Assembly: GCA_020284085.1 (NCBI GenBank)
Contig: JACEVL010000062.1
Coordinates: forward strand, 649,795 to 713,794
Source of the DNA: Aporrectodea caliginosa
Lineage: Eukaryota > Annelida > Clitellata > Crassiclitellata > Lumbricidae
DNA: 64,000 nucleotides
Direction: 5' to 3'
Made by a program: the position numbers and the translations under genes. Shown piece by piece: positions 2,175 to 45,979 of the stretch (positions are counted from its first letter, which is position 1; the number at the start of each line of letters is the position of its first letter). The notes below the pieces were generated by a model. That model had not been told where the DNA came from. It saw nothing but the letters and a program-made list of their open reading frames with translations, and did no database searches.

Positions 2175-3330
2175 CTAAGAAGAAAAAGAGTTGGTGACAG
2201 AGCCTTCACTCAGAGTTTGCTTATTTGGTGATACTTTGCGTGTTGGAGATATCTTTCTCATAAATAATGTATCCATAATGTTAGGCTTACTTTCAGCCTC
2301 AGCAATTTGTAACAAATTGCAATTCTGTGTTTGTTGTACAAGGCTCCATTGCTCGTACGAATTGCTCCAAGTATCGTGCAATTTGTGTAGCTCTTTCGCA
2401 ATTTTACAGATGTTGCTATGTATACGCTCTCTGGTTGTAATCTCCTCGTGGAAACGCTCCACATACTCTTTCCATGAATCTAAGCATGAGCCTGCTTTGC
2501 GAAGCGTAACCAGATCCACACTTGTGCTGCTTAATGGTGATGGTGACTGTACCTTTGCATAACTATCTGATTTGACGATTCCTGTGCAGTCTGGTCTAAA
2601 TGGTGTGCTGTCAATTTGAATCACATTCGCAGCTGTGGTTCTTTCCTCACAGATGTTCTTCTGGGCTCTATAGTAGGCCTGACAAGATCTGACCCCGTTC
2701 AAGTAGCTGTCGATAATCTGGCGCACGTCTTTCGTTGCTAAGGCGACGCTAATCACTCGGATGATTGTTATGTTTTTCTTTGACGCACACTTTGCATATG
2801 ACTCGGGTGCATATGCTGCAGTAGTTGTCCAACTTACGCATGTGCTTTTGGCACATCCGCTGCATCTTATCACTGGCATAGCCTTGGTGACTTTCTTCCG
2901 TAATGCTCGTAATGCCGATTTGCGTTGTAGACCTACCGCGACCATAATCATGCCTGCGATACACGGGATCGGAAAGATCAGCAGCAGCGCAAAGATCAGA
3001 ACCTTCAGTTCGTTCAAAACTGGCTAGTTGTAGGGTCGAGCTCAAAGCGTCCGCTGTTGCTATTATTCTGTCGACATATTTGTCTGTTGGCAAAGCAGCG
3101 ATTCCCTGTTTCGGAATTTCAAAATCAATTCTGCAGGTTGGACAGTTAGCAGTCGCACCGCTTTGTAAATTCCGTGTAGTATTTTCATTGAGGCAATGAA
3201 GACAGAATGAATGAAAGCAGGGAAGAATCTTTGGATTGGTAAACGTCCTTTGACAGAGGCTGCAAACCGTTATACAACGAAATTGTTTTTCTAATTCAGT
3301 TAGGCCTTCAGTTTCTTTAGCGACAGCCAT
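2175..3330 (-). pseudogene. Broken copy C of the RING/B-box/coiled-coil (TRIM-USP) gene
   Basis: The minus-strand start at 3330 opens a RING (CSLCQRTF ... CFHSFCLHC ... CPTC) and a B-box (CQKHMRKLDNYCSICTRVICKVC), close to exon 1 of the copies at 22906-29074 and 43203-45936. The frame is lost by about one extra base near 2760, after the B-box. It resumes one frame over (VISVALATKDV ...) and runs to 2175. Compared with the 22906-29074 copy it lacks a short block before the B-box and about 85 residues before SKPN. Homology ends near GSVTN, and a few bases later the gypsy LTR begins, giving a chance stop at 2175-2177. The coiled coil and USP exon must lie left of the retrotransposon, outside the window, or be lost. 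Almost certainly non-functional. Confidence 0.9.
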
Positions 3331-3356
3331 GGCCTAAAAATAGCAACAAAAATAGG

Positions 3357-7399: not shown

Positions 7400-8960
7400 T
7401 TTGCTTACCGCCCGTAGCTTGACTTCCAGTTTAATGACTTCTTATTTCGCCCCGACGATATTGATTACGATTTCATCCGAAGTGACCTATCCTCATCGTT
7501 ACTAAACTTGGTCGGCGCACTCTTAAGAGTTACGCGGCTTACAGGTCTATTGAGTGTAGACCTATGTATCTGGTTACTTGTAGAGAATCTTGTAAGGACC
7601 TCTCAGTGACGTTACATGTAGCACCCTAAGAGAGCAGAAGATGGTTTAAAATGAGCCCTAAAATGGCTTGAAATTTTTCGGTGTTTATACGCTAGGCCCC
7701 TCACCGGAAGACAACTGTCTTCTGCTTCCAGTGTTTTACAGTGCTTACAATTTAATCAGTAATCATCTTAAAACGCTAATAGATCACATGGTCACGAAAC
7801 AGGGTTTTGAAAAGGTGGTACATACCGTGACAGCGTGGATGTAAGTACGGACCATACTTCGTTGAAGTACGCCCTTTCGTTCAATCCTACTTGATCATCA
7901 TCAGTCTGTTACAGTACCCTGGTCAGTGGTAGATTCAGAAGTGTAACTTAAATTGGACACAGCCTGATTTCGCATAAGCAGATTCACACACTAACCTGCC
8001 TGACCTCTAAACTTAGAGGAGATCATTCAGGGGCGGCGCTGGCCGGGGGTCCAGGGGTCCGGACCCCCCAGCTGTCGTTCAGACCATTTATCCAATTCGT
8101 GTAAATCCGAATAGATTTTTTGGGGGGTGGTCTGGTTTCGCTAACAGCCTAGCAACTAATGTCATGACTTTGTGACTCTTTCCAATATATTAAATTAATA
8201 TTATGATCATCACTATTTATTAGGTCTACTCAAATTCTTTAAATTATATTTAACTTATTTACTAAACTTCTCTGCACTGCGTGCTTATGATTGGTACGTC
8301 ATTGGTCCGTGTGTACAGTGTTGACTCTTAGTGAAAATAACAATAATAACTTTTTTTAATGGCATCATTAAATAGAAATCCGCTTACTGATTGAACTGGT
8401 TGATGAAAAATCAAATTAATTAAGATAAAATAGTAATTACATGTTTGCAAATTTTTGACCAAGTCAACGTAGCAACTAACAAATCAAGTTCATTTTAAAG
8501 CTATAAATGTTTTGTTCAGAGTGGCTGAAATGAGCGCCATATGGCAACATTATACTCCAAAAAGCGTTGGCTTACGATGCTCCCCCAGACCCCTAATCGT
8601 GGACAGCTTCGCGCCTTCGGCGCTCGCAGTGCCTCGCAAGTTACTTTCATTTTCGTGGACCCCCCCACAACTAAAAACCCAGCGCCGCCCCTGAGATCAT
8701 TAGGATGGTGGATTGTGGTTTCGTTTCTACAAATGCAAATTGATAAATGCCGCAATAGAAGTTCGATTAGATTATAAAGGTTTTATTGGCTATTGTTTCC
8801 CAACTTTATCGTTTTCTCTGTTCGCTTTTCTCCCCGAACAACTTTCGTGCTGCTTGGCTGATGCTCATTTTAAACTCCGCTATACTGTAGCCTAATAACT
8901 CTTCGATTATGCGGAATAGAAGACTTTAGTTGGCGTTTACACTTTCCTTTTCATAACTAT
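7400..8960. repeat. Spacer copy D of the local segmental duplication
   Basis: This stretch matches 17430-18520 and 39590-40880 in order and orientation (for example TTGGTCGGCGCACTCTTAAG near 7508 and the CTTGTAAGGACCTCTCAGTG block near 7590). In units A and B the spacer lies just downstream of a TRIM-USP gene. Here the region to the right, where the gene should be, is filled by transposons. A 656-bp hAT-like element (8038-8693) has inserted in it; both paralogues have the empty site. No intact ORF. Confidence 0.75.
8038..8693. mobile_element. hAT-like MITE, 656 bp, perfect TSD
   Basis: The 8-bp duplication AGATCATT flanks the element (8030-8037, 8694-8701). The 15-bp inverted termini CAGGGGCGGCGCTGG are perfect. 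The related spacers read straight through GAGATCATTACG at about 18252-18262 without the insert, so this is a true insertion. ORFs inside are short and unrecognised. Confidence 0.9.
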
Positions 8961-13199: not shown

Positions 13200-14575
13200 C
13201 TCGTATACAAGCCTGCCTCCATCTCTCTCTGGTCTCCTCTTGGCAAACGGACCTCCGCTTAGAATCTCTGAACAATCCCTCTAACACGATACAATGCTCG
13301 TGAATAAACTGGTGCCACTGCATCTAGTTAGCTTAAATAGGGCTATAGAAATTTCAAGATTAAGATTTTGATAAATAATCAGCTCGTATTTTGACGTATT
13401 GATGGACGCTGTCGCTGTATTGTAGATTGACTGATCTGCTGCAGTTCCACTGCTCTTGTTTTCAAATCATCAACACCCCGACAGAGATAACTAATTGTCC
13501 CTTTCATTATAAACTGCTTATTATACAGTTCACAGCTTTCTTAGAGAGCTAACTGACTTCCGATGTAGTCCTTTTCGATTTCTATTTCTTTTATCTTTTC
13601 TCTTTCTAAGTTATACACTCATTGCAGTATCCAATTCATTGCTTTCTTGGCGAGCTTACTGACTTCCTACATGTATGTAGTCTTTCTAAATTTCTACTGC
13701 TTTCAACTTTACTGTTTTCAATTAAGCGAGCGCAAGAACAGGAAGACTGGCTTCTTTGTCAACCAATTCCTTGAGCTCTCTCCTTCTTTCTTTAACAGAA
13801 AATTGTGGACTTTGTGCTTTTCGAGTCGTCGATTCTTTCACCTTGACAAATTCAATAATCTTTCCTCGAAGACCCGAAATTCTAGACGCAAAATTCCGAA
13901 TGTTGGTTTGAAATTGGTTGCAAAATTCTTCCGCTGTTTTGTTGGCATCCGACCACTAGTGACCCCGATAACCTTCGATGTAGCAAAGAAGACAGACCAC
14001 CTTCTTACAGTCGAAACAATTAGTTTTCAAACGTTCTCTTTCGTATTTTTGCAGACTTCAAGAAACAAATTTTTCCTGTGTCTGTCCTGAAATTTCGAGA
14101 TTTTCTTCGGATATATATGGTCAGCGTGCTTTTCCGATGATGACTGAGGCAAATCTCTCAGAGTCTGAGACAACAATCTGTGCAAAACATTTCAGCTGAA
14201 GCCTCAATTGTTGAAGCTTGGTCTTCATCTTCCAAACATATAGCACACAAGTTCAGAGATGAATTATAGGACTCTGTTTTCTTTGCCACTTCTATTAATC
14301 TCAATAAGAATTTATTCTTCCTTCTTCCTTATTGCAGTAAATCCTTCTGAAGGAATTGTAAATTCCTGTCTACATCATGGACATGGCATTGAAGCTACGA
14401 ACCTCTTGTTAGATTGTGAACCAATGTCTTCGAGGCATTTCTGGCAGAACGTATGAATGCACAGAAGTGTTCTTGGGTCTAGGTAGTTTTCTCTACATAT
14501 GCAACATTTGGTTGAGCTTCTCTTAAGGTTTTCTTGCATCTCACAGACGGCCTTCTCAGTTGACGACATTTTCAC
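13200..14575 (-). pseudogene. Small TRIM gene, decayed copy 1 (RING, two B-boxes, coiled coil)
   Basis: The minus-strand reading starts at 14575 with a RING (CCICRENYLDPRTLLCIHTF then CQKC, 66 codons before a stop at 14375). Continuing past stops, 14200-14290 reads as a B-box 1 (CAICLEDEDQ ... MFCTDCC, then a stop where a Cys is expected). Next, 13960-14020 reads as a B-box 2 (CFDCKKVVCLLCYIEGYRGH). About 13725-13960 is coiled-coil-like (EEFCNQFQTNIRNF, RRRELKELVDKEA). The segment 13200-13320 is shared with copy 2. Several stops show it is a pseudogene. A CGAAAGTGAAA motif precedes the start codon. Confidence 0.7.
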
Positions 14576-14695: not shown

Positions 14696-14920
<225 letters not shown>

Positions 14921-15239
14921 TCTCAACTACTCTTGAATATCGAATAATGTGGGTTAGTAAATTACACAGAATAGTCGAATTGTTCTAATCGTTCGCAGTC
15001 TTCAGTCTGCATTCTGCCCTTACTCACATCATTTATATTCATTAATTCCTTGTGCAACTGAACATTCTTCAAGTTAAACATTCATTTTATTGAAAGAAAA
15101 AAAGCATAGTTACTATTATAACTGAAAATCAAAGAAAAGCAAAATTAGTGTTAACAAGTTTTACGTAATACTGCTAAACTACGCCTAACTTATTCAGATT
15201 TGACTTGGGTCTTATCTAAACACTAAACTTTGCCCTAGC

Positions 15240-15646
15240 TCTGCCTCCATCTCTCTCTTGTATCCTTCTGGCAAACGGACTTGGACATCCACTTAGAATC
15301 TCTGAACAATCCCTCTGACACGACACAGTGCTCGTGAATAAAACTTCACTGTCTTCGCCACTTTTATTGATCTCACTAAGAATTCATTCTTCCGTATTGC
15401 AGTAAATCCTTCCGAAGGAATTGTAAATTCCTGTCCACACGATGGACATGGCTTGAGGCTTGAAGCTCCGAAACTGTTGTTAGATTTTGAACCAATGTCT
15501 TCGAGGCATTTCGGGCTGAACGTATGAATGCACAGAAGTGTTCTTGGGTCTAAGTAAGTTTCTGTACATAAGCAGCATTTGGTTGAGCTTTTCTTGAGGT
15601 TTTCTTGCATCTCACAGACAGTCTTCTGAGTTGACGTCATTTCCAC
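15240..15646 (-). pseudogene. Small TRIM gene, truncated copy 2 (RING only)
   Basis: The 117-codon minus-strand frame (15646->15293) contains a RING: CCLCTETYLDPRTLLC, H, then CPSC, followed by the usual EFTIPSEGFTAIRKNEFL linker. The Cys of the HxxC step is Ser (HTFSPKC), so one zinc ligand is lost. The frame then jumps directly into sequence that in copy 1 lies about 950 bp further on, so both B-boxes and most of the coiled coil are deleted. Probably a pseudogene. Copies 1 and 2 form a tandem duplication that includes flanks to about 16100. Confidence 0.7.
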
Positions 15647-15845
15647 TTTCGTAAGTAGAACAATTCCGAAACTAGGTTATGTTTTGCTTGCTATTTGATT
15701 TTATGAAAACTCATATCCTTGCTCGATTCCATTGACACAGAGACAGACTGTTGTTTGTGTGTGTGATCTCAACTACTCTTGTCAAGCGAATATGTGTGAA
15801 TTAGTAAATTACAGAGAATAGTCGAATTGTTCTCATCGTTTGCAG

Positions 15846-15952
15846 TACAATACAATATTCGTTTATTGACTAATCGCCTCTGATTGGTCTTCACTGTGAG
15901 AGGCGCTTTATAAATTTATGAATACAATACAATACAATACAATACAATAATC
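15846..15952 (+). mobile_element. Short CR1-like 3' tail insertion
   Basis: GAGAGGCGCTTTATAAAT followed by ATACA repeats (about 15922-15950) is the tail signature also seen at 54240-54298. It interrupts sequence that is continuous in the paralogous stretches near 15000 and 38310. Confidence 0.55.
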
Positions 15953-16099
15953 AGGATTGACACAAACGCAACTTTGTTATGAAACCGAAATTCAAAGAAA
16001 AGCAAAATTAGCTAAAACAAGCATTGCTGTCGAAATACTCCTGAACTACGCCTAACTCATTTAGCTTTGACTTGGGTCTTATCTAAACACTCAACTTTG

Positions 16100-18943
16100 C
16101 ACTATGTTAAGCATAGCCTACTTAAGCAGATAGCGGTAGCCTAGTACCATTGTAGACTTAGCCTACTAGTATCTGCTTAAATATTATAGGCCAAACGTCG
16201 GGCTAAACTCTGTTGGCTGATGAACAGTTTGACTGAAGTGCCATTCTTCAAAATTGCAACCAAGACAACTTGGAGTTCCGTTTCGCTAATATAGGCCAGT
16301 AAATCAACGGGTCATCCTTCTATGAAGCACATAGGCCTACTTGTTTGTACTGTGGCCATCATCATGAAGGTTCTGACCTTGCATTCAATATATGGCTATA
16401 GCGGTACAAAGCTTATCAAACACTTTGTTAAACTAAATAATTAATATAGAGAGTAGTATAATCTATATAATTAATAGCAGCGTTTAGTTAAAAAGGGATC
16501 AGATAAGCTGACTGAAATAATATACAAATTTAGCAACAAACGCCACTCATTGGTAGTTAGGTAGGCCTATTGTTTATATTTTATGATTTCAACTATTTGA
16601 TTTTTAATATAATCAACAAAATACTACATGATACGTTTGGTGTTTATGTGCTATCATGCTATGACTGTCGGCTACTTGACGTAATGTGATCACTGATCAC
16701 TCTCTTCAGCCTTATTCGACGAGGCGAAAAAGCTATCTTAGATGGGTCTACAAGGGCATCTCTTAATTCGCGGGGAAAATGCAGTTGCCTCGGCGTATTG
16801 TGGGTGACCACACGCCAAGTACGTCCAAATGATCGATACAATGTCATGTTCTTCTGTAACTGTAAATGGATAACCATGCAAGCTCGCTTTGTAAGTTCTG
16901 CTTGAACAAAGCGCGGTTCATACGTTTCCTATGGCGGAGAAAATTGTCTTCTGGCGCTCTTACCGTTGCTCAAGCATGCGTCCCTAACTATAAATACTGC
17001 AATTACCTAATGAAAGGCCCAAGGCCGTAGCCAGGATTTTGTTTCGGGGGGTGTTTACTCGTTCTTGAACAAGCCGACAAGCAACCAAGTCAACCGTCTA
17101 TAAGGGGTTTGGAGGAGCGCTGTGAGCTCTCAAAGCACTGTAGAGCTGCATCATCTAAGTTCACATGAGTGCTCGTAGTTCTTACACCGTATAATTATGT
17201 AAGTAAATGCAATATTTATATTATACATAATTTAATTTCGGGGGGTGTTTAAACACCCAAAACACCCCCCTAAATACGGCCTTGGAAAGGCCTGACAAAG
17301 TTTAATCCCTGGCAAGTAATGCAATGCAAGTACTTGAATTTTATCAAGCGTTTGCTACGAACCTTTGTTCAGTGTTATGCCAAGTCTCTAATCTCAATCA
17401 GAATTGTGGTTTCAGTTTGTTTATAACCATCCGTAGTTTGACTTCAAGTTCAAAGTGGACTACGACGACGTTGACTACGACTTCATATACTTCATATGAG
17501 CATCTTATCCTAGGTCGGCGCACTCTTAAGAGCAACGCGGCTTACAGGCCTCTTTTATGTTGACCTATGTACCTGCAGGCTACTTGTAGAGAGCCTTTTA
17601 AGGATCTCTCAATGGCGTTAAATGTAGCACTCTAACAGACCCAAATATATATATTTATATATAAACATTTTAAAGTCTTTTAAGACTCAATACTCTAAGT
17701 CTTCAACGAAGTATGGTCTGTACTCACATCCACGCTGTCATGGTGGTGACTAGCCTACCTTTTTCAAAACATTGTACGCCCTTTCGTTCGATCCAACTTG
17801 ATTACCCTCAGTCTATAGCCTGGTCAGTGATATATCTTAAATTTAGGAAGGGAACATCTTCTGTGATTATATTTCTTTTCATGACTTTTAGTGTAAATTT
17901 TTCGCATGTCCACAGTTGTCCTCGGAACCCTTGGCAACAGCTGCTGTTAACAGTTCCTCTTGAAATTCTAAATTTTGTGTATGTAGCCTTTAATGATATT
18001 TTGTATAGGCCTATACATCGCCTACACTGTAATTTGCACTGACGGCCTATAATAATTATTGACAGCATTAGCTTATTCAGACGATGCACAAGCTACAGCC
18101 TATATATCTACACACGTTTCATCCGCAGTTAAGTTTTTGGGAAATAAAATGGGCCACGATCTCATCGCATGTCTAAGACTCAGATTGGGCATAGCCGGAT
18201 ATCCCACCAACAGCTCCGCACATTAGACAGATTCATGTCCGCCAGACCTCTAAACTTAAAGGAGATCATTACGATTGTGGATTGCCGCTATAGAAGTCCA
18301 TCAGATTATAAAGGCTTTCTTTGACATTATTGTTCACCAGGCAGCTTCCGCTCTTCATTATTTCTCTGTTCGTTTATTTCCACGAACAACTAATGTGCTG
18401 CTTTGCAGATCGTAATTTTAAACTCTCTGCTATAGGCTACTATCATTCCTCGACTATGATGAATAACAGACTCTCGGTTGACATTTGCTTTGTTTTATTT
18501 TAATCTGCTTTCAGTTCTTCTTATATTCGTCAATTTTTTGTTCTCTAGCTAAGTGAAATTCCACAAAATCTAAATCAGTTTGACCTCTAGAAAACTATGT
18601 CGATCAGTATAACACCGGTAGTTCTTAAAAAGCCTGACGTGTTTACAAATAAGTTTGAACTTAAATAATTTTCTTACATACGCCACACAGAGTTGCCTTC
18701 AAAAATAATAAACTAATTTAGTTTAATGATACGTTCAAGTCTGGTTAACTGTTATGCAGGAATGTCGCAGAATAAGATTGAATAAACGAAATAGTTAAAC
18801 AAATTATTAAAACAAAACATTAAAACTAAACCTCTTGTTTATAAAAAATAATTCTTATAACCAATTAGGCCTACTTAAACGTAGGTCTAATTCAATCGAT
18901 TGTTCTATTGGTAATCTGTTCAAAGTGCAATCAGTATAAATAG
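16100..18943. repeat. Spacer of duplication unit A
   Basis: Collinear with 38500-41310 in unit B, with alignable landmarks throughout (for example CTAAATAATTAATATAGAGAG near 16432 and 38879, and ATGCAAGCTCGCTTTGTAA near 16876 and 39293). Differences include a 265-bp MITE and several 6-bp GGCCTA insertions. A minus-strand block at 17700-17990 corresponds to the open frame at 40069-40383 but is interrupted by stops here. No intact gene. Confidence 0.8.
17020..17284. mobile_element. hAT-like MITE, 265 bp, perfect TSD and empty site in unit B
   Basis: Target duplication GAAAGGCC (17012-17019, 17285-17292). The inverted termini CAAGGCCGTA / TACGGCCTTG are perfect over 10 bp. Unit B reads ATGAAAGGAATGACAAAG at about 39439-39456 with no insert, so the MITE arrived after the A/B duplication. 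The interior contains GGGGGGTGTTT and its inverse. Confidence 0.92.
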
Positions 18944-21081: not shown

Positions 21082-22373
21082 CTATTTAGCGGCTCTTTCG
21101 TAAAACAGTAGATACGCCGCTTGCGACAAAACCTCCGTCTTCTCCACAGCCTTCACATATTCATCGTCTGCTAAGTACCATTGACCTTCAACTTCCTTTG
21201 GTTCCCACTCCTTTCTGCTTCTGACCATTCCTCTGCTTGCGTTAATTCTTCTGATCTCGTCTCCGTTAAGTACCTGCTCTCGATTAAGGAAGGTCTGTTG
21301 CATAAACTGTTTAGTTTGGCGCGTATCACAATCCCTGACCTTGATGTAAGAGACGTAGTGACCAGAGGTCAAGGATCCCTTGTGAACGACAACTCCGTAG
21401 AGAGAATACCAGATGTTGGCGTCGTCTGGTTCTCTCATTCGCAGACAGCTAGAACTGCAATAAGGTCCAATGTCCAGATATTCATCGTATGTGACTCGTT
21501 GATTGCACTTCTTGAACCCAACTGTCGTCTGCTCGAATCTCTTCAGGTGAAGGACCAACACAGCCGGTGGATTGTAGATCAGAGTTCGCTTCAATGCGGA
21601 TGTCATCGATGGCCGTCCTGCTGTTTCGCATGGGTTACATAGATACTCGTTATGAATTTGCTCAGTTCTGCTGTAGTTTACAAGGCATTGCTTCAAAGAA
21701 ATTTCTCCCATGGAAAGAAAGATACGTTGCGGTGTTTTCAATCCAGACCGAGCTCCAAGTGGTCTCATTGTGACTTCAACTGCCTGTCTCACCGGGTCAT
21801 CTCCGATTGAATGTGGATTAGGCCTATGTAAATGATCAATGAACAAATCTTCCTCCTCATCTTCCCCTCCATCCTTTGGTCCAAGTATCGGAACTGATAT
21901 ATCAAGGAATGGTTCGCATACATGGTAAGGTGTTTTGCAAGTGGAGCAAACGTATACAGTAATCGTATGACCGCCGAAAACTTTGTCAACTACAGTCAAC
22001 ACGTTTCGAAACCCAGGTGAGTTGACAGACGCGAGACGTCTTCTTTCTTCATCTCGAAGGCAGTTCAGGAAGTTTACAAACAAATCGTGACTATCGTGCT
22101 GTCCTCTGTCGGCAAACCTTGATGATTTCTTACAGAACGCATTGTACATATGCCGGAACGTTTGATCACAGTTGGCTTCATAATATTTCTGTATAAATTC
22201 TATGTATGCGTTGGTCAGTAGCTTTTCAACGTCTGTTGGCGATTGCTTAGAAAGACTGAGATGCAGTTCTTCAAATAGGAGAAAAGTATAGATCAGGTTC
22301 TGCATGGTAGCGCCAAAGTAACACGTGTTTCCCACATTCGATATTCCTGTTGGTAAGGTTGGTTTTCCGCTCG
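21082..22373 (-). CDS. TRIM-USP gene A, exon 2: USP16/45-type deubiquitinase domain
   Basis: This exon would supply the C-terminal ~430 residues and cleave ubiquitin from substrates. The acceptor TTTCTTGTCAG precedes 22373; one base carried from exon 1 plus CG makes an Ala codon. Motifs in order: Cys box GISNVGNTCYFGATMQNL with the nucleophilic Cys; QQ-like box GQHDSHDLFVNFLNCL; zinc ribbon CSTC and CNPC; LVLHLKRF; His box YSLYGVVVHKGSLTSGHYVS; and GQWYLADDEYV with the third catalytic residue. Wording and spacing fit the USP16/USP45 group, but their N-terminal zinc-finger ubiquitin-binding domain is absent. The stop is at 21082-21084. An in-frame GGCCTA-type insertion (21819-21826) adds Arg-Pro relative to gene B. 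An alternative start inside the intron is open but not conserved in B. Confidence 0.92.
21819..21826. repeat. TAGGCCTA site inside the USP exon of gene A
   Basis: The minus strand reads CAT-AGG-CCT-AAT-CCA where gene B has CAA-AAT-CCA at about 42165. Six extra bases therefore add Arg-Pro without changing the frame. Confidence 0.85.
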
Positions 22374-22905
22374 CTGACAAGAAATTTAAAAAACATTGTT
22401 GCGCAATAGAATACATTAAGTGAATGTGAACTTTTAGATATTTCTGTATCATTTACAGCATTTTCAGACTGGCCCCAGGGTTTGTATTCAAGAGCAGAAT
22501 CCACAGAACTGCATCTCCAGACATTTGAGTGAAACTGTAGAAAATCATGTACATCAGTTTAAAAATCTTCCATTTCCTGATACCACTATTTTATATCCTC
22601 AGCAACTGAAATCTAGGCTACCTCTGTATTGATTTACAATTCATAATGCTACAAACTTAACTTAATTGACACTCCGAATGACATGTTATTTTACAATAAT
22701 AATATTGAAGGTTTGTACTAACTAATTAACTTAGCAATACGGATTGCCGCGTCCGTCAAAGGAATTACACTGTGATCAGCAATTTTGGCAAATCTCATTA
22801 GCTGCTGACAAAGAATGAAGGAAAAAGATGTATGTCATACAGTCCTAGATGTTTAAAATTCAAAGAAATTGGCCTTAAATATCGTAATCATAACCAAGAA
22901 CTCAC
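22374..22905 (-). other. Intron of TRIM-USP gene A
   Basis: 532 bp between donor CAG|GTGAGT (22906/22905) and acceptor CAG|CGAGC (22374/22373). Both junctions are phase 1. The intron of gene B is 496 bp at the same protein position. Confidence 0.85.
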
Positions 22906-25900
22906 CTGCTATATGGACAGCAGTTGAGTCATCAAAAGTGCTCATTGTATTCAATTGTAGCTGCTTTAAATCTGTGATATTGGTAATTAGCGTAGCTTCT
23001 CTTGTTGCTACTTGGCCTAATTCCTTCTTGGAACTTCTGTTTTGTTCCTCTTGTTGCCTGAGTACCTCGCGAAGCTTAAGGATTTCATTTTGCAAATCGT
23101 GGATTTCATCTTTATACCGTTTTATTCGAGCATCGTGTATTCTGTCCTTTTCGCTCTGTTTATGCAGGCTTGCGTCACTGTTGCGTATCGCTGTTTGGCG
23201 CATCTGCTGCTCACTTGTTAAGCTCTGTTGGAGTTCGGCGACTTGGTGTTCTAATATATTGATTCTCTTCAATAACTGTTTCTCTGTAGCTTTCAACTCG
23301 TTCGTTTTATTTTTGACGGAGACCTTAAGTTTCTGTATTGCATCATTCTGTGATTCCTTTTCCATTGTTTTCGTGTATGTTGACTGTTTATCTATTGTAT
23401 CTATCCATTGTATTAGATGCTCTAACTCTAACTGTGTAAGGCTTAGTTTATGTTCTAACCGCTGCTTTAAGCTTGTCTCATCTCCATGCTTTATCAATGC
23501 TGCTTTTAATTGCTCTTCGACTTTGTTAGTGCATTCTTTCTGTTGTGTCAACGCAACTTTCAGATCCTGTATATGACTTTCTAATTCTTGAACTCTCGCA
23601 TTAAGTTGTTTCTCACCATTCTTGAGTAACTGTACATTTTCCATTAATTTGTCCCGATCACTAGCGAACTCTTTGGCTAATTTTCGATGATTGCTCTCTT
23701 CATTTATCAATCTCTGCCTGAGCTCGTTTATCTGCTGACCCGATTCTTCGATTGTCTGCAACGATTGTTTGTCTTTATCTCTCAATTCTTTTGTTGTCTT
23801 GATGATCGAAACTTTGATTTTCTTTATTATGCTATTCTCTGATTTTCCTTCCATCGTCCTCTGATCTTCTGTTGGTTGTATATCTTCTCTATCCAACCAC
23901 TTTATTAGATTTTGCAACTCCCGCAGTAAGGGTGTATCGTCTTCTTGCTTCTTGTCAGCCAAGTATTGACCCTCTTGTTGCCTTAGTACTTCGCGAAGCT
24001 TAAGGATTTCATTTTGCAAATTGTAGGTTTTTTCGTTAATCTGTTTTAATTGAGCTTCATGTATTCTGTCTTTTTCCTTTAACTGTTTATGCAGGTTTGC
24101 GTCATTATTGCTTAACGATATTTGGTGTATCTGCTGCTCACTTGTTAAACTCTGCTGGAGTTCGGTTACTTGGTGCTCTAATTCTTGAACTTTGGCAATA
24201 AGTTGTTTCTTGTCATTCTTGAGTAACTGCATATTCTGCATTAATTTGTCTCGTTCACTTTCTAATTTTCGCTGGTTTTCCTCTTCAGTGGCCAGTCTCT
24301 GCTGAAGCACGGTTATATGCCGGTCCGATTCTTCGGTTGTTTGCAACAATTGTTTTTCTTTATTTTTCAACTCTCTTGTTGTCTCGATGATCGAATCTTT
24401 GATTTTCTTTATTATGCTATTCTCTGATTTTCCTTCCATCGTCATCTGATCTTCTGTTGGTTGTACATCTCCTCTATCCAACCACTTTATTAGATTTTGC
24501 AACTCCCGCAGTAAGTGTGTATCGTCTTCTTGCTTCTTGTCAGCCAAGTATTGACCTTCTTGTTGCCTTAGTACTTCGGGCAGCTGAAGAATTTCATTCT
24601 GCAAATCGTTGATTTCTTTGTTAAGCTCTTTTTCTCGAGCTTCCAATATTCTGTCCTTTTCCCTTAACTGTCTATGCAGATTTGCGTCACTGTTGCGTAA
24701 CGATATTTGGTGCATCTGTTGCTCACTTGTTAAGCTCTGCTGGAGTTCGGATACTTGGTGCTCTAAGTCACTGATTCTATTAGATAGCAGTTTCTCTGTA
24801 GCTTTCAACTCGTTCGTTTTCTTTTTGATTGAGACCTTAAGTTTCTGTGCTGTATGATTCTGTAATTCCTCTTCGATTGTTTTCTTGTCTGTTGACTGTT
24901 TATCTATTGAATCTATCCATTGTATTAGATGCTCTAACTCTAACTGTATAAGACTTAGTTCATTCTTGTACGTCACGGAATGTTCTAGCCGCTGCTTTAA
25001 GCTAGTATAATCCTCATTCTTTATAAATGCTGTTTTTAATTGCTCTTTGACGTTGTTATTGCATTCTTTCTGCTGTGTCAACGCGTCTTGCTCATCGTAT
25101 ATTTGACTTTCTAATTCTTGAACTTTGGCATTCAGTTGTTTTTTGTCATTCTTGAGTAACTGTACATTTTCCGTTAATTTGTCTCGTTCACTTGCAACCT
25201 CTTTGTCTAATTTTCGCTGATTTGCCTCTTCATTTGCCAATCTCTGCCGAAGTTCGGCTATTTGCTGTCCCGATTCTCCATTTGCCTGCAACAATTGCTT
25301 CTCTTTATCTCTCAACTCTTTTCTTGTCTTAATGATCGAAGCTTTTATTTTCTTTATTATACTATTCTCTGATTCTCCTTCTGTCGTCACCTGATCTTCT
25401 GTTGGTTGTCTATTTCCTCTTTCTATCCACTTTATCAGATTTTTCAATTTCTGCAGTACGCCTGTATCGTATTCTTGCTTCCTGTCAGCCAAGCATTGTC
25501 CTAAACGTTGCTTTGAATCTGTCAATTCAGCAGTTAGATGAGATTCCCTTCTCAGTGTCGCTTCTATTTGCCCTTGGGTAGTCCTATTCGACTCACGCTG
25601 CTGCTTCAGATCTTCATTTAGTTGGTCAATTTGACTTTCCAATTTCTGAAGTTTATCAGCATCTTGTTTTTCTCTAACCAAGGATGCACGTTCTTTCTCT
25701 GCAACGTCACTGCTTTTCACCTGATGACTTAGTTCATGTTCTAACCGCTGCTTCAAGCTTGTCTCATCCCCAAGCTTCACCAATGCTACTTTTAACTGCT
25801 CTTTGACGTTGTTATTGGATTCTTTCTGTTGTGTCAACGCATCTTGCAGATCGTGTATATGACTTTCTAATTCTTGAACTCTCGCATTAAGTCGTTTCTC

Positions 25901-28900
25901 ACCATTTTTGAGTAACTGTATATTCTGCGTCAATCTGTCTCGTTCACTTACAACCTGTTTGTCTAATTTTTGCTCATTTGCCTCTTCATTTGCCAATCTC
26001 TCCCGAAGTTCGGTTATTTGATGGCCCGATTCGTCGATTGTCTGCAACAATTGTTTCTCTTTATCTCTCAACTCTTCTGTTGCCTTGATGATTGATGCTT
26101 TGATTTTCCATATAATGCTATTCTCTGATTCTCCTTCCATCATCATCTGATCTTCTGTTGGTTGTATATCTCCTCTATCCAACCACTTTATTAGATTTTG
26201 CAACTCCCGCAGTAAGGGTGTATCGTCTTCTTGCTTCTTGTCAGCCAAGTATTGACCCTCTTGTTGCCTTAGTACCTCGCGAAGCTTAAGGATTTCATTT
26301 TGCAAACCGTGGATTTCATCGTTAAGCTGTTTTACTTGAGCTTCATGTATTCTGTCCTTATCCCTTAGCTGTTTATGGATGTTTGCGTCATTAATGCATA
26401 ACGATTCTTTGTGCATCTGCTGTTCACTTGTTAAACTCTGCTGGAGTTCGGTTATTTGGTGTTCTAACTCTTGAACTCTGACATTAAGTTGTTTTTCGCC
26501 ATCACTGAGTAACTGTATATTCTGCATTAAATTGTCTCGTTCACTATCAAACTCTTTCTGTAATTTTCGCTTGTTTGCCTCTTCAGTTTCCAGTGTCTGC
26601 AGAAACAAGGTAATTTGGTGGCCCGATTCGTCGATTGTCTGCAATAATTCTTTCTCTTTATTTTTCAACTCTTTTGTTGTCTTGATGATCGACGCCTTGA
26701 CTTTCTTTGTTATACTATTCTGCGACTCTCCTTCGTTCGTTATCTGATCACCTGTTGGCTGTCTATCTCCTCTGTCTATCCACTTTATGAGATTTTCTAA
26801 ATCGCGCAATACGCCTCTATCGTCTTCTTGCTTCTTGTCAGCCAGCCCTAAACGCTGCTTCGAATCTGTCAATTCAGCAGTTACATGAGATTCTCTTCTC
26901 AGTGCCGCTTCTAATTGCCCTTGGGTAGCCTTATTCGACTCCTGCTGTTGCATCAGATTTTCTTTTAGATAATCAATTTGACTTTCCAAATCTTGAATTT
27001 TATCAGCACCTTGTTTTTCTCTAGTCAAGTATGCGTGTTCGTTCTTTGCAACGCTACAGCTTTTCAACTGAAACGCCATCAGTTCACTTGAATCTCGTGA
27101 TTTCAGTTCTGCCATCTGGTGGTTCAATTCCTCATTCCTATTGATCAACAGTCTTTCGTTTTCTGACAATTCTTTTGTTTTTTTGATTATCGAAACTTTT
27201 AATTTCTCTATAATGCCATTCGCTGAGTGAGATCTTGTCACCGTCTGAAATTCTGGTCGTTGTGTATCGATTCGTTCGATCCAAGATATTAACTGTTCTA
27301 GCTGATGATTCTGTCGTTTTTCGTTTTGCAGCTGCTGTGTTAGCCTCTTTTGAATGTCGGCGTTTGATTCCTGCTGCTCTTTTAACGCTGCCTCCCACTG
27401 CTCCTTCTCTATTTTGAACTGCTTCAGCAAATCACAGCATAGCTCTTTCTCTTGCCCCCATTCAAACTTTTCCTTCAAAAGTTTTAATAACTGACTTTTG
27501 CTCTTTTCGTGTTGCTTGTGTGTAGCATTTGTCTGGCTTTCTAGCCGTTTAATTTGTCTTATTAACTGCTCTTCTTTTTCATCCCGTATTATTTCTTTCT
27601 TGGTGTAATATTCTTCTATTTCTTTCATTTGGTCTAACAACTTCTGTTGCTTATTCACAAAATGCACCTGATGAATAATCGAGCCTCCATTCATTGTTTG
27701 CTTAGTTGCTGATATTCTGCGTGTTGGAGATATTATATTTGTCTTGAGTAATTTAGGCTTACTTTTAGCCTTAGCTATTTGTAATTCATCAGCAAACCTA
27801 TCTCTTTCCTTTTTCAAGTTTACGCATTCCCGTTTTTGTTCCTTTAAATTGGTTTCCATCCGAATATTTTCTTCACTAATCCTATTTATAATATCCTTAA
27901 GCCCTTTTTCATTCGCCATCCATTCCCTTTGTTCCCGTAATAACTTCTGTATGCATTGTTCTTTCTCTTCCAATTCACGACGATTGTCTAAGTCTGCCAT
28001 AGATGTATTATTCCTTGCAAATAAAGCATTGCTATTCTGTGTGTGATATACAAGGCTCTCTTGTTCGTACGAATGGCGCCAAGTTTCGTGCAACTTGTGT
28101 AGCTCCGTCGCAATATTACAGATGTTGCTACGTATACACCCTCTGGTTGTAATCTCCTCGTAGAAACGCTCCACATACTCTTTCCATGAACCGAAGCATG
28201 TGCTTGTTTCACGACGCTTAACAATATCCCTACTTTTGCTGCTTGATGGTGATGGTGACCGTATCTTTGCATATCTACCTGCCTTCACGCTTCCTCTGCT
28301 GTCTGATCTAGCTCGTGAACGGTACATTTGATTCACATTGGCAGCTGCGGTTCTTCCTTCACGCTCTGTCTCGCAGAGGTTGTTCTGAGCTCTGTTATAG
28401 GCGAGACAAGATATGACTCCGTTCAAGTAGCTGTCAATCATGTGGCGCAGGTCATTCATAGCTAAGGCGACGTTAACCACTCGATGAGTGCGATGCTCTG
28501 TTTTGGTGCACAATTCGCATATGACTCGTGTGCATTTGTTGCAGTAGTTGTTGAACTTAAGCATGTGCTTTTGGCACATACGCTGCATCTTATCACTGGC
28601 ATAGCCTTGGCGACTTTCTTCCAGACAAACTCTGCCAGTTTGAGCACGGCTCTTAATGCTCTGGCCGATTTGCGTTGTAGACCTACCGCCACCATAATCG
28701 TGCCTGCGGTAAGCCTGATGGGATCGATCAGCTGCAGTGCAAGGATCATAACCTTCAGTTCGTTCAAAACTAGCTATTTGTAGGATCGAGCTCAAAGCGT
28801 CCGCAGTTGCAATTATTCTGTCGAGATATTCATTTGTTGGTACAGCAGCGACTCCCTGATTCGGGATTTCAAAATCAATTCTGCACATTCGACAGTGAGG

Positions 28901-29074
28901 AGTCACACCGCTCTGTAAATTCTGTGTAGTACTTTCATTGAGGCAATTGAGACAGAATGAATGAAAGCAAGGAAGAATCCTTGGATTGGTAAACGTCCTT
29001 TGGCAGAGGCTGCAAATCGCTATACAACGAAATTGCTTTTCTAATGCTGTTACAGTTTCTTTAGCGACATCCAT
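22906..29074 (-). CDS. TRIM-USP gene A, exon 1: RING, B-box, very long coiled coil
   Basis: Encodes about 2,056 residues from the ATG at 29072-29074. The RING uses C21, C24, C36, H38, C41, C44, C61 and C64; the B-box uses C167, H170, C178, C181, C186, C189, H194 and H197. This is the TRIM-type E3 ligase arrangement. From about residue 360 the chain is almost entirely coiled coil, rich in Glu, Lys, Gln and Leu. It contains eight copies of a unit with an L-I-x-W-I/L-D/E-R core followed by an NSIIKKIKxSIIK-like core; anchors lie near 27275, 26776, 26179, 25423, 24913, 24477, 23896 and 23400. The frame stays open to a GTGAGT donor and stops 17 codons later, so it must splice to exon 2. The ATG context and N-terminus are shared with copies B and C. 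Likely cytoplasmic, self-associating; substrates unknown. Confidence 0.92.
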
Positions 29075-29101
29075 GGCTTCAAAATAGCAACAACAATTAG
29101 G

Positions 29102-29120
29102 TCACTTTCACTTTCACTTC
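29102..29120 (-). promoter_or_regulatory. IRF/ISRE-like motif upstream of TRIM-USP gene A
   Basis: The minus strand reads GAAGTGAAAGTGAAAGTGA, 27 bp before the start codon. Tandem GAAAGTG is the binding pattern of interferon-regulatory-factor proteins. The motif is identical in gene B (45961-45979) while surrounding bases differ. So near the ATG, it may lie in the 5' UTR or next to the transcription start; function is inferred only. Confidence 0.5.
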
Positions 29121-32929: not shown

Positions 32930-33185
32930 TCTGCATTCCAGTAAGGCATTCTAATGGGATAGAGAAATAATTTTCTTTTACATAATGGACAAGGCATTTT
33001 TTCCAGATTTCTTGTTAGATTTTGACCCAATATCTTCAAGGAATTTGACGCAGAACGTATGTATGCAACACAATAATCAAGGATCTGTAAATGTCTGAGT
33101 ACATAATAATGCTACATTTGGCAATATCCTTCAATTGTTGTTGAAGTTTGATGTTATTAGTCTCATTCAAAACCATTTTCACTTT
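32930..33185 (-). pseudogene. Small TRIM gene, decayed copy 3 (RING remnant)
   Basis: Minus-strand sequence below a CGAAAGTGAAAATGG start aligns with copies 1 and 2. The order Q-L-K-D-I-A-K-C-S, then a degenerate YLDPRTLLCIHTF region, then GSKSNKKS and a PCP-like end is still traceable. Most zinc ligands are gone and the frame is broken. It sits left of unit B, as copies 1 and 2 sit left of unit A. 32200-32930 shows no other feature; a 125-codon minus frame at 32296-32673 is unrecognised. Confidence 0.6.
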
Positions 33186-41200: not shown

Positions 41201-41345
41201 AACATTAAAACTAAACCTCTTGTTTATAAAAAAAATAATTCTTATAACTACTTAAACGTAGGTCTAATTCAATCGATTGTTCTATTGGTAATCTGTTCAA
41301 AGTGCAATCAGTATAAGTAGGTCTGCAATTGAATTCACAAAACTA
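38245..41345. repeat. Spacer of duplication unit B
   Basis: Aligns with 14930-15200 and 15780-18943 of unit A and partly with 7400-8960. It lacks the hAT insertions of unit A and carries its own GGCCTA insertions (39104-39111, 39274-39281, 41058-41065). At 39760-39835 a short block of TTTTCGTT motifs is inserted, flanked by a direct repeat of GCGCACTCTTGAGAGTAACG. Confidence 0.8.
40069..40383 (-). CDS. Conserved spacer ORF, unknown (possibly a decayed exon)
   Basis: A 104-codon minus-strand frame without recognised family. Its C-terminal half (LTRLQTEGNQVGSNETAYKV ... TAWM) can be followed in unit A at 17700-17990, where stops interrupt it, and faintly in spacer D. Reading-frame similarity is better than I would expect for random spacer, but I cannot tell whether it is a relic exon of a lost third gene of the unit or non-coding. 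No start context or splice sites stand out. Confidence 0.25.
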   Translation of the reverse strand: MQITDVYKKSSYIPGTKMSNFKSCKKAVAKCSDDNCGHARKANYKSHEKIYNQRSKIRSLSTCSFPNLQKIPLTRLQTEGNQVGSNETAYKVLKKVVTTMTAWM

Positions 41346-41405: not shown

Positions 41406-42706
41406 CTATTTAGCGACTCTTTCGTAGAACAGTAGATACGCCTCTTGCGACAAAGCCTCCGTCTTCTCCACAGCCTTCACATATTCATCGTCTGCTAAGT
41501 ACCACTGACCATCGACTTCCTTTGGTTCCCACTCTTTTCTACTTCTGACCATTCCTCTGCTTGCGTTTATTCTTCTGATATCATCTTCGTTAAGCACCTG
41601 ATCTCGATTAAGGAAGGTCTGCTGCATAAACTGTTTAGTTTGTGGCGTATCGCAATACTTGACCTTGATGTAAGCGACGTAGTGACCAGAGGTCAAGGAT
41701 CCCTTGTGAACGACAACTCCGTAGAGAGAATACCAGATGTTGGCGTCGTCTGGTTCTCTCATTCGCAGACAGCTAGAACTGCAATAAGGTCCAATATCCA
41801 GATATTCTTCATATGTGACGCGTTGATTGCACTTCTTGAACCCAACTGTCGTCTGCTCGAATCTCTTCAGGTGAAGGACCAACACAGCCGGTGGATTGTA
41901 GATCAGAGTTCGCTTCAATGCGGATGTCATTGGTGGCCTTCCTTTTGCTTCGCACGGGTTACATAGATACTCGTTATGAATTCGTTCAGTTCTGCTGTAA
42001 TATACCAGGCACTGCTTCAAGGAAATATCTCCCGTGGACTCTGGCATCAGAGATCTCTTCTGAAAGATACGTTGCGGTGTTTTCAATTGAGACCGAACTC
42101 CAAGTGGTCTCATTGTGACTGCAACTGCTTGTGTCACCGAGTCATGATTTCCGATTGACTGTGGATTTTGCAAATGATTAACGAACAAATCTTCCTCCTC
42201 ATCTTCCCCTCCATCCTTTGGTCCTAGTATCGGAACTGATATATCAAGGAATGGTTCGCATACATGGTAAGGTGTTTTGCAAGTGGAACAGACGTAGACG
42301 GTAATCGTATGACCGCCAAAAACTTTGTCAACTGTAGTCAACACGTTTCGAAACCCAGGTGAGTTGACAGACCCAAGACGTCTTCTTTCTTCATCTCGAA
42401 GGCAGTTCAGGAAGTTTACAAACAGATCGTGACTATCGTGCTGTCCTCTGTCGGCAAACCGTGATGATTTCTTACAAAACGTCTTGAACATATGTCGGAA
42501 GGTTTCATCACATTTGGTTTCATATCCGCTGGAACGAAATTCTATGTATGCCTTGGTCAGTGGCAGCTCAGTGTCCAATTGCAGTTTATACAGATTGAGA
42601 GGCAGTTCTTCCGTTAGGAGAACAGTGTAGACCAGGTTCTGTATAGTAGCGCCAAAGAAACACGTGTTTCCCATATTTCTAATTCCTGTGGGCGCTCGTA
42701 AGTTCG
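41406..42706 (-). CDS. TRIM-USP gene B, exon 2: USP16/45-type deubiquitinase domain
   Basis: Encodes about 433 residues. The acceptor ATTTCATAACAG precedes 42706, and CG joins the G left from exon 1 to form Ala, the same phase as gene A. Conserved elements are the Cys box GIRNMGNTCFFGATIQNL, GQHDSHDLFVNFLNCL, CSTC/CNPC zinc ribbon, LVLHLKRF, His box GSLTSGHYVAYIKV and QWYLADDEYV. All catalytic positions are present. The first Met in this frame lies within the Cys box, so the exon cannot give an active protease on its own; it needs exon 1. Stop at 41406-41408. Closely similar to gene A over nearly its whole length except the first 60 residues and a small insertion (KRSLMPEST). Confidence 0.93.
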
Positions 42707-43202
42707 CTGTTATGAAATATAGAACAAATAATTGCTACCAAATAGAATACATTTAAGAGAATGTGAAAATATGGATAATTTCTCATTTACAGTGTTCTCG
42801 GATTGGGCTATAGCTTTTGTATTCAAAAGCAAATTCTACAGAAATGGCATCTCCAAACATTTTAGTAAAACAGTCTAAAAATTCATGCATTTGAACATAA
42901 AAGAATCATCCACTTCCTAATGCCACTATTTAAGCCTCTAAGCAACTGAGATCTGCCGTCCTAATGATTCGCACTACATACAAAGGAACTAATCTTAACT
43001 AAAGGCCTATTTTCAATAATGTAGGCTTGTGCCATGTTATCTCTTGAAAACGGAACTCGCCGCGTCCGTTAAATGATTTCTAGTGTCGAGAGAAATTTTG
43101 GCAAAATCTCCTCAACTTCTGAATAAAACGTAATGAAAAAGTCTGCAGTTCGAAGTTCAAAGAAAAGGTCCTTAAAATTTTAGTTATCATGCAAGAACTT
43201 AC
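42707..43202 (-). other. Intron of TRIM-USP gene B
   Basis: 496 bp from donor GTAG|GTAAGT (43203/43202) to acceptor ACAG|CGAAC (42707/42706), phase 1 at both ends as in gene A. Confidence 0.85.
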
Positions 43203-45936
43203 CTACAATCTGGACAGCAGTAGAGTCATCGAAATTGTTTTTAGTATTCAAACGTTGTTGTTTCAATTTTGTCACTTCGGTAATTGGCTCGGCTCCTGTT
43301 GGTGATACTTGATCTAATTTCGCTCTGAAACTTTTCTTTGGTTCCACTTGTTGCTTTAGCACTTCGCGAAGCTGAAAATTTTCATTCCCCATATCGTTAA
43401 GCTGTTTTTCCTGAACTCTCCGTATTCGTTCCTTCTCCACTAACTCTTTATGCAGCTTTTCGTTACTGTTGCGTAATTCTTGGTGCTTTTGCTGTTCAGA
43501 GTATAAGCTCTGTTTGAGCTTGGTTATTTGGCGATCTGATTCGTCGATTCTATGCAATAACTGTTTCTCTATAGTTTTCAATTCTTTTGTCTTTTTGGTG
43601 ACTGATGACTTAAGTTTCTGCACAACGCCATTCTGCGATTTCTCGTCTAGCGTGATCTGGTCTGTTGACTGTTCATCGATTGTATCTACCCACTGTATGA
43701 GATGCTCCAACTCTCGCTGTATAAGACTCAGTTCTTTCTTGTAAGCCACGGAAAGTTCTAGATGCTGCTTCAAGCTGGTCTCATCTCCATTCTTTATCAA
43801 TCCTGCTTTGTGGTTGAATTCTTTCTGCTGTGTTAGCGCATATTGCAGATCATGTATTTGATTTTCTAATTCTTGAATTTTTGCATTAAGTTGTTCCCTG
43901 TCTTTCTTCAGTAGCTGTATTTCCTCAATTAACCTGTCTCGTTCCCTTGCGAACTCTTTGGCTAATGTTCGATGGTTCTTCTCTTCAGTTGTCAATATCT
44001 GCTTGAGGTCGTTTATCTGCTGGCCCGAATCTTCGTTTATCTGCAACAATTGTTTCTTTTTATCTCTCAATTCTTTTGTTGTCTTGATGATGGAAGCTTT
44101 TATTTTCTTTATTATGATATTATCTGATTCTCCTTCTGTCGTCATATGACCTTCTGTTAGTTGTCTATCTTCTCTTTCTATCCACCTTACTAGATTTTTC
44201 AATTCCCGCAGTAAGCCTGTATGGTTAACTTGCTTATTGTCAACCATACCATGCCCTAAACGTTGTTTAAAATCTGCCAACTCAGCAGTTAAATGACCTT
44301 CTTTTCTCAATGCCGCTTCTAATTCCCATTGGGCAGTTCTATTCGACTCGCGTTCTTTAGTCACATCTTCTTGCAGCTGATCAATTTGACTTTGCTGGAG
44401 CTGAATTTTATCAGCAAATTGTTTTTCTCTAGTTGACCAAACATGTTCTTTCAATGCAACGTTACTGCTTTTCATTTGCTGCGTCATCTGTTCACTTGCA
44501 GCACTTGACTTCGTCTTATATTTTAATACCTCAATCTTATTCAACAGTAGTCTTTCTTTTTCTGACAAGTCTTTTATTTTATTGACAATTACATCTTGTA
44601 ATTTATCTATAATGCCATTATCTGAGCCAAATCCTGTCGTCATCTGAAATTCTGCTCGATGTGTATCGATTCGTTCTATCCAAGATATTAAACGTTCTAG
44701 TACAACACTCCGCCGCTCTTCGTTTTGCTGTTGCTGTGTTAGCTGATTTTGAAGGTCGGCGCTTAATTCCCGCTCTACCCTTAGCGCAGACTCCAACATT
44801 TCCTTCTTGTCTTGCGATACTTTGCGAGTTAGAAATATCGTTTCACTGTGCAACTGATGTATGCCTCGTTCTTTCTCTTTGAATTCACTACGATTGTGTC
44901 CGTCTCTTCTAGATGCAGAATTCCTTGCGCTTGGAGAATTCGTATTCTGCGATTGCTGTACAGGGCTCTCTTGTTCATATAGATTGTAACAAGTTTCGTG
45001 TAACTTGTGTAGTTCCTTTGCAATATTCAAGATGTCGCCATGTAACCCTCTGTTCGTAATTATCTTAAAGAAACGCTTCGTGCATTCTTTCCATGAATCT
45101 AAGAATGTGTTTGTTTCTGGATGCTTAGAAAGATTCCTACTTATGCTGCTTGATGGTATTGGTGTTCTTACATTTCTACCTCTGTCGTCTTGTCTAACTG
45201 GTGTGCTGTCCATTCGATTCATAGTCGCAGCTGAAGTCCTTCCCTCACGCGCTGTCTCGCATATGTCGTTCTGACCTCTGCAGTAGGCGTGACAAGAATC
45301 GACCCCGACCAAGTAGCTGTCGATCTTGTGGAGCAGGTCCTTGTTAGCGGAGTCGACGCTAATCACTAGGTGATTGCTATGTCCTTTTCCATTGCACAAG
45401 TGACACATAACTTGTGTGCAATTGTTACAGTAGCTGTCGAACTTTTTCCTGTGGGTTTTGCAGAAAGGCTTCTGCTGCGTCTTATCAGAGGCACAGCTTT
45501 GACGACCATCTTCATGAGAAACTCTGCCAGGTCTAACAAAGTTCTTAATGCTACGGCCGATGTGCATTGGAGACTTACCGCGGCCTGTAGGCCTACCATC
45601 TGTGCGTTGAAAAATAGCTGCTTGTAAGATCGAGCTCAAAGCGTCCGCTGCTGCTATTATACTTTCGACGAATACATTTGTTGGAAGATCAGCGACTCCC
45701 TTTCTCGGGATTAAAAAATCAGCCCTGCAGGTTGGACAGTTGGCAGTTGCACCGCCTTGTAAATTCCCGGTAGTAGGCCTAGGCCTATTTTCTTTGAGGC
45801 ATTTAAGACAGAATGAATGAAAGCAGGGAAGAATCTTTGGATTGTTAAACGTGCTTTGGCATAGGCTGCAAACCGGAAAACGAGAAAATTGTTTTTCTAA
45901 TTCAGCTAGGTCTACAGTTTCTTTAGCGACAGCCAT
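43203..45936 (-). CDS. TRIM-USP gene B, exon 1: RING, B-box, coiled coil
   Basis: Encodes about 911 residues from the ATG at 45934-45936. The RING reads CSLCQSTF ... CFHSFCLKC ... CPTC with a four-residue RPRP insertion after CLKEN. The B-box reads CKTHRKKFDSYCNNCTQVMC then CNGKGHSNH. The coiled coil carries three of the repeat units found eight times in gene A (anchors near 44678, 44180 and 43690). The open frame crosses the donor GTAAGT and ends eight codons later, so splicing to exon 2 is required; the joined product is 1,344 residues. Same TRIM-type ligase role expected as for gene A. Confidence 0.92.
45774..45787. repeat. Double GGCCTA insertion in the RING exon of gene B
   Basis: TAGGCCTAGGCCTA replaces the TA of the AATACT site seen in copy C (AATACTACA) and, with one change, in gene A. 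Read on the minus strand it is AGG-CCT-AGG-CCT, adding Arg-Pro-Arg-Pro between two zinc ligands of the RING. Confidence 0.85.
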
Positions 45937-45960
45937 GGCTTTAAAATAGCAACAGTTAGA

Positions 45961-45979
45961 TCACTTTCACTTTCACTTC
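45961..45979 (-). promoter_or_regulatory. IRF/ISRE-like motif upstream of TRIM-USP gene B
   Basis: GAAGTGAAAGTGAAAGTGA on the minus strand, 25 bp before the ATG, identical to the motif of gene A. Same reservation: it could sit in the 5' UTR. Confidence 0.5.

Follow-up and report, generated by a model that had tools for sequence, protein, structure and literature searches.

Ubiquitin ligases and deubiquitinases often work as pairs, and to our knowledge few proteins carry a ligase and a deubiquitinase in one chain, A20 being the best known. Among the ligases, the tripartite-motif (TRIM) proteins auto-ubiquitinate, and their coiled coils form antiparallel dimers or higher arrays. In the available excerpts of the literature, A20/TNFAIP3 has deubiquitinase and E3 ligase activity in one chain (PMC7504854), human USP16 has a zf-UBP finger and a long insert in its catalytic domain (PMC10047310), fish TRIM genes have gained a chromodomain, a cyclophilin and a transmembrane domain by exon gain (PMC3137616), and an annelid genome paper reports that TRIMs have expanded and links them to antiviral immunity (PMC8460440). 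The C-terminal domains of TRIM proteins named in the excerpt of PMC3137616 are other than a ubiquitin-specific protease (USP), and the terms "peptidase" and "deubiquitin" are absent from that text. In the present study, we analysed a 64,000-nucleotide stretch of contig JACEVL010000062.1 of the annelid Aporrectodea caliginosa (the window, to whose positions all coordinates of genes A, B and C refer), in which gene A joins a TRIM-type head to a USP domain. We read gene A as a two-exon TRIM-USP fusion of a lineage-specific family, which may act as a self-contained ubiquitin editor, and we give this joint reading a probability of about 0.6. A TRIM-USP fusion was not found among the matches listed from the open-access literature, subscription papers and preprints being outside that scope, which agrees with the initial annotation, where no described family was known to join the two.

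Like the TRIM ligases, also called RBCC for RING, B-box and coiled coil, gene A has by sequence an N-terminal C3HC4 RING, then a B-box, then a long coiled coil, and its head matches TRIM2 by profile (E-value 1.8e-16); unlike them, it ends in a USP protease, and its coil runs to some 1,750 aa. From USP16 and USP45 it differs in that its USP has neither the zf-UBP finger nor the long insert in the catalytic domain and occupies one exon behind a TRIM head. The likeness to A20 is one of possible function only, deubiquitinase and ligase parts in one chain, whereas A20 is built of an OTU protease and A20-type zinc fingers, that is, of unrelated folds in the opposite domain order; neither an OTU deubiquitinase nor A20 zinc fingers were found in gene A, for which Pfam gives UCH, RING and B-box only. 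The fish genes and the worm gene are alike as TRIM genes with a newly acquired domain, but none of the fish gains named in the excerpt is a ubiquitin protease, and the worm fusion forms a multigene family with several subfamilies.

Gene A lies on the minus strand in two open reading frames (ORFs), 29101-22853 and 22452-21082. The start codon at 29074, in a GCCATGG context, opens exon 1 (22906..29074; 6,169 nt, or 2,056 codons plus 1 nt, phase 1), which encodes the C3HC4 RING at 28883..29014 (residues 21-64, CSLC...CFHSFCLNC...CRMC, with an Arg after the last Cys), the B-box at 28484..28576 (residues 167-197, CQKH...CNKC...CELC...HRTH) and a coiled coil of about 1,750 aa, which was placed approximately at 22925..28174 by periodicity against shuffles and by internal DNA repeats. 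The phase-1 intron (22374..22905, 532 bp) runs from a GTGAGT donor at 22905 to the acceptor TTCTTGTCAG, and exon 2 (21082..22373) holds the complete USP domain and the stop, with the catalytic Cys codon at 22321..22323 (GNTCYF, by motif reading) and with the His in SGHYV and the WYLADD motif likewise there. The joined exons were translated into 2,486 residues without an internal stop. Hence the open course of exon 1 through RING, B-box and long coil to a phase-1 donor, the phase-1 CAG acceptor across a 532-bp intron and the length of the predicted product, all proposed in the initial annotation, were re-derived here.

The completeness of the USP domain, likewise claimed before, is borne out by a full-length Pfam UCH match (4.9e-40, model positions 1-254 of 254), by an AF2 model with a predicted local distance difference test score (pLDDT) of 88 and a predicted template modelling score (pTM) of 0.90, and by 378 Foldseek matches of this model to solved USPs at E<=0.001, the best being 3mhs_A (1.3e-26). 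Its assignment to the USP16/45 type stood in part. The closest human protein of the exon by sequence is USP16 (2.2e-44), and the named proteins among the matches listed in the USP protein searches are mostly USP16/45, but the zf-UBP finger (PF02148) of that type, sought by Pfam in both gene A exons, gave no match. Judged from these searches, the gene A USP is a relative of USP16/45 and, given the missing finger, not a USP16/45 proper. In the head, Pfam recognises zf-B_box (3.2e-8, 34 bits against a cut-off of 24.1) and zf-RING_UBOX (4e-6, 27.2 bits against 25.2).

Gene A had been presented as a lone oddity; it is one member of a family, of which gene B in the same window and a decayed head, copy C, had been overlooked, and of which copies D (L023) and E (L024) lie elsewhere in the same genome, on contig C1841 (A, B and C being on contig C61, that of the window). 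When the gene A head was used as query over the 1.098-Gb assembly, these five stood far above all else (144 of 1,098 candidates scored). Gene B is a full paralogue at 45936-41406 on the minus strand by self-comparison and ORFs. Its exon 1 (43203..45936; 2,734 nt, phase 1) holds RING, B-box and a shorter coiled coil, as read from ORFs, motifs, head profile and periodicity; its phase-1 intron (42707..43202, 496 bp) is bounded by GTAAGT...TTCATAACAG, its exon 2 (41406..42706) encodes a complete USP by ORF reading, and the spliced product has 1,344 residues. Donor, acceptor and phase agree with those of gene A, and D and E are built of two exons in the same way. In all four copies (A, B, D and E) exon 1 has a length of 1 mod 3, and the intron, of 496-536 bp, runs from a GTRAGT donor to an AG acceptor; the zinc ligands of RING and B-box and the USP Cys, His and Asp are likewise kept, as are the NTC[YF], SGHY and WYLADD motifs. 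The joined frame is open in A, B and E, and copy D has one in-frame stop in the coiled coil. The idea that the copies on C1841 might be no more than the second haplotype is opposed, if not conclusively, by their synonymous divergence (dS) of 0.15-0.20 from A and B in the USP and by differing coil lengths.

A profile of the A, B and C heads, compared with solved structures, gave the RING of TRIM2 cited above and also those of TRIM3 and TRIM56, with weak matches to the B-boxes of TRIM72 and TRIM29 (1.6e-4 and 3.5e-4). The B-box also passes the Pfam cut-off in D and E and is seen in B by motif only. In the coils of A, B, D and E hydrophobic periodicity is strongest at 3.55-3.6 residues, and in none of the four did any of 200 shuffles reach the power seen at period 3.5. 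The gene A coil contains internal DNA repeats (window self-comparison) and eight matches of a L[IV].W[LIVM][DE] unit, spaced 145-252 aa; B has three, D two and E four. Pooled over the copies, dS is 0.17 in the USP and 0.26-0.46 in the other segments, and the low USP value may reflect gene conversion. The pooled ratio of nonsynonymous to synonymous divergence (dN/dS) is 0.37 in the USP, i.e. purifying selection, and 0.59 at the end of the coil.

The USP exon is itself widespread. PF00443 has at least 138 matches in the genome (149 of 238 candidates scored), many of which are single-exon USPs 420-530 aa long. For 28 USP loci related by descent, namely A, B, L009-L029 and L033-L037, we read the same-strand DNA upstream over at most some 8 kb (some 4 kb at L009) and found a TRIM-type exon on the strand of the USP exon in eight: A, B, D, E, L020, L033, L034 and L036. 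RING and B-box pass the Pfam cut-offs in A, D, E, L033 and L036, the RING of E via zf-C3HC4 only; the heads of L020 and L034 fall below them and were identified by eye, and L026 has a B-box-like exon only, also below cut-off. No TRIM head was seen in the other 19 within the DNA read, where degenerate or more distant heads could escape; for L009-L011, L014, L015, L018 and L027 the check was a motif pattern alone, one that does not pick up the degenerate head of L020. Of the 25 USP exons in which the USP motif was found, 20 have a pyrimidine-rich AG, in the same phase, 14-32 nt ahead of it; L017, L019 and L022 have such an AG further upstream, and L015 and L016 have none. A tree of 48 USP domains has a radiation distinct from canonical USP16/45, with the A clade supported at 100/100. 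L029 (G000:C61:862600-872400) has an A-clade USP exon that has lost both catalytic Cys and His, and no TRIM head was found in about 8 kb upstream of it. At G000:C576:66471-71300 and C331:1085277-1118236 the USP matches are split within very long open frames (710-1,636 aa), which suggests large in-frame inserts within the domain.

Public sequences hold further relatives. P0002, the second-ranked protein match among the best 120 of 2,438, is an ORF of 924 aa on a 3,336-nt contig, in which we read a USP preceded by a degenerate RING (CTHVLCLEC...CNIC), a B-box-like stretch and a coil; the TRIM exon of L020 aligns to its head at 1.9e-14 over 181 columns. It thus resembles gene A in its parts, there within one ORF, and differs in its degenerate head, where the first RING Cys pair is incomplete, and in a USP about 37% identical to that of A. 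Against this genome P0002 gave USP matches only, the best-scoring at 43% (49 of 414 candidates scored). A likeness of its linker to the coil exon of L020 and L028, seen by eye, was unsupported (hmmsearch E 0.58), and its structure model (pLDDT 47) was unusable and set aside. The search for other RING-B-box-USP fusions that had been called for gave P0002 on reading; no RING or B-box accession stood beside UCH among the best 120 of 2,438 matches, nor was any found among the best 120 of 3,819 in a second protein search. Another relative in the same radiation, P0121, puts what by eye is a membrane-spanning head on a USP very near that of L013 (branches of 0.03 each), and from this pair receptor-like USPs may exist.

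The structure itself has to be weighed against two other explanations. One is that of two adjacent genes, a TRIM gene that stops at 22853 just past the donor and a USP gene whose transcription begins at a start of its own inside the "intron". The exon 1 frame does terminate shortly beyond the donor, in-frame ATGs in the intron tail of A, D and E could start a USP-only product, and the relatives P0122 and P0237 are USP ORFs of 499-521 aa with no head visible. However, the phase-1 donor and acceptor are conserved in all four copies, and gene B has no such ATG: its USP frame opens at 42734 with none ahead of the Met of MGNTC, the Cys box, so that the B USP would require the upstream exon to retain its N-terminal edge. 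The stretch from acceptor to Cys box differs among the copies by whole codons only (17, 15, 19 and 17 residues), unlike the introns, which carry many other indels, and this is expected if translation enters from upstream. Furthermore, the order of head and USP recurs in other subfamilies and within the single ORF of P0002. No AATAAA or ATTAAA polyadenylation hexamer occurs in either window intron (A and B), which counts for little because B has none in about 500 nt after its stop either. Some observations speak against the two-exon structure. Having arisen by duplication, the four copies do not count as independent trials; the A and B introns are 62% identical overall (47 gap positions), but parts of them reach 77-83%, no less than the 70-72% of the flanking exon ends, so the contrast of exon and intron is modest; A, D and E have a second pyrimidine-rich AG 4 nt on, in another phase; Pfam does not recognise the head of P0002, and the grouping of P0002 with the A clade reaches only 88/75, with a program warning of long branches meeting. 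On balance, we consider two separate genes improbable. Still less credible is an artefact of assembly or of a collapsed repeat. Assembly is difficult where there are tandem duplicates and a repetitive coil, but the same structure stands on two contigs (C61 and C1841), related structures on C807, C29 and C30, and P0002 comes from another public source. Since three further copies keep the junction, the structure of gene A is not chance, though the copies arose by duplication. Judged by structure, gene A is very probably a genuine two-exon TRIM-USP gene; its exon 1-exon 2 junction is strongly indicated, and both halves would be translated as one chain. Of the original proposal of a TRIM head and USP in one gene, the structural part is well supported by the junction kept in four of four copies, by B without its ATG, by the TRIM exons of other subfamilies and by P0002, while the single chain keeps its conditional standing.

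In the mechanism that we propose, a single-exon USP, related to USP16/45 without the zf-UBP and lying behind a phase-1 intron, would serve as a last exon, to which splicing in gene A would join a TRIM head encoded in one exon. The long coiled coil would make antiparallel dimers or higher arrays, and the RING would add ubiquitin to whatever the coil gathers and to the protein itself. The USP, in the place of the target-reading domain of other TRIMs, would bind ubiquitin and trim or replace chains; the outcome would be a ubiquitin editor complete in itself, comparable to A20 in function and made from unrelated parts. The residues of the gene A head are compatible with E3 ligase activity, and the gene has the residues for both activities; it may write and erase ubiquitin on the same target. 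The editor mechanism draws on the zinc ligands and USP Cys, His and Asp kept in four of four copies, the complete USP fold and the TRIM2/3/56-like RING, and we advance it tentatively, at somewhat less than even odds.

Two other functions of a real fusion compete with this editor. In one, the USP would mainly protect the ligase by stripping its auto-ubiquitination and so keep a very long TRIM scaffold stable, substrate editing being secondary. In line with this, A, B, D and E keep both catalytic centres and the head is TRIM-type by profile, but L033 is left unexplained, where a canonical RING that passes Pfam stands before a dead USP (GNNYYF); we hold a mainly protective role to be rather unlikely. 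In the other, the USP would be mainly a ubiquitin reader in the position of PRY/SPRY or NHL, docking the TRIM on ubiquitin-marked cargo, with catalysis dispensable. This draws on the catalytic Cys being replaced in 8 of the 25 USP loci with the motif found (L022, L025, L026, L028, L029, L033, L034 and L037), of which L033 follows a TRIM head of canonical type and L034 a degenerate one; on the other side, the A subfamily keeps the catalytic residues in four of four copies and the USP is its most constrained part, and we regard the reader as the more doubtful of the two. The lost Cys residues are at the same time a point against dual activity. To it are added the first Cys pair of the RING, which L020 and L034 lack and which is incomplete in P0002, and pooled dN/dS values of 0.60 for RING, 0.56 for B-box and 0.74-0.86 for linkers, single pairs over these segments reaching 1.84, with 0.82 for the head between A and B; by these ratios the USP is clearly constrained and the head weakly. 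A Cys-lost USP behind the canonical RING of L033, together with damaged RINGs elsewhere, indicates that the two activities can be lost separately. With one or both centres lost in relatives, dual activity cannot be taken for granted across the whole family, and the dual-active reading fits the A subfamily best. For the family we see an even chance that the USP exon with its phase-1 intron is a plug-in last exon, joined to TRIM heads in several subfamilies and to a membrane-anchored head in another, and that it has given tandemly expanding one-chain writer-erasers, possibly under control of interferon factors, which keep or lose each activity independently.

Such control is suggested by an element like an interferon-stimulated response element or interferon-regulatory-factor (IRF) site ahead of the genes. 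In gene A it is AAGTGAAAGTGAAAGTGACC at 29100..29119 (minus strand), 26-45 bp upstream of the start codon, and in gene B it lies upstream at 45959..45978 on the same strand. CTTGAAGTGAAAGTGAAAGT occurs within 24-55 bp ahead of the ATG in four of four copies and is truncated in C. With up to two mismatches, AAGTGAAAGTGAAA has 8 matches in the window against 1.7 expected, a number that 0 of 100 shuffles reach; five of the eight are at A, B and C (those of A and B overlapping in pairs) and three elsewhere. The A-family element (GAAGTGAAAGTGAAAGT) resembles an IRF site. The element, the tandem duplication and the fast linkers together suggest control by IRF-like proteins and a role in defence.

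As for the remaining features of the window, copy C (2175..3333, minus strand) is a decayed RING and B-box head with a broken frame (one TGA and two TAG inside). No USP partner for it was found downstream in the window by self-comparison, and the genome search for USP loci, with the share of candidates scored as given above, shows only A, B and L029 on contig C61. A segmental duplication lies directly downstream of A and B (14941-18943 against 38247-41320, pieces 73-81% identical over most of the length), with a partial third copy at 7391-8925. On the minus strand, relics of another RING family with stops or frameshifts near were seen at 14330-14506, 15356-15577 and 33002-33106, two of which have CGAAAGTGAAAATG in common at the start codon. 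Between 13.0 and 20.9 kb and between 30.0 and 39.9 kb, Pfam applied to all three minus-strand frames gave nothing beyond one RING relic. A (TG)112 dinucleotide array with 99% matches occupies 14696-14919, and neither Rfam at its gathering threshold nor a tRNA scan gave a match in the window. In the wider genome, the search with the gene A head gave, beyond A to E, about 140 distant TRIM-like matches (at least 146 rows in all), most in open frames of about 380-450 aa; as far as this search goes, and as a lower bound, the genome holds a large TRIM expansion. COX1 reads through under the invertebrate mitochondrial code 5, and its sequence appears annelid, of earthworm type. It was met on C70:3435453-3436790 and on the presumed mitochondrial C4544:4612-5949 with equal score and equal TGA codon count, so the C70 copy would be either a recent nuclear copy or a misassembly.

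If true, the TRIM-USP fusion would offer a natural test of how a writer and an eraser are coupled, which could distinguish chain editing from self-protection and from cargo reading, and the paralogues with one half dead could serve as controls that already exist. The TRIM family would also gain a new class of C-terminal domain, and an invertebrate with a defence-like expansion would be added.

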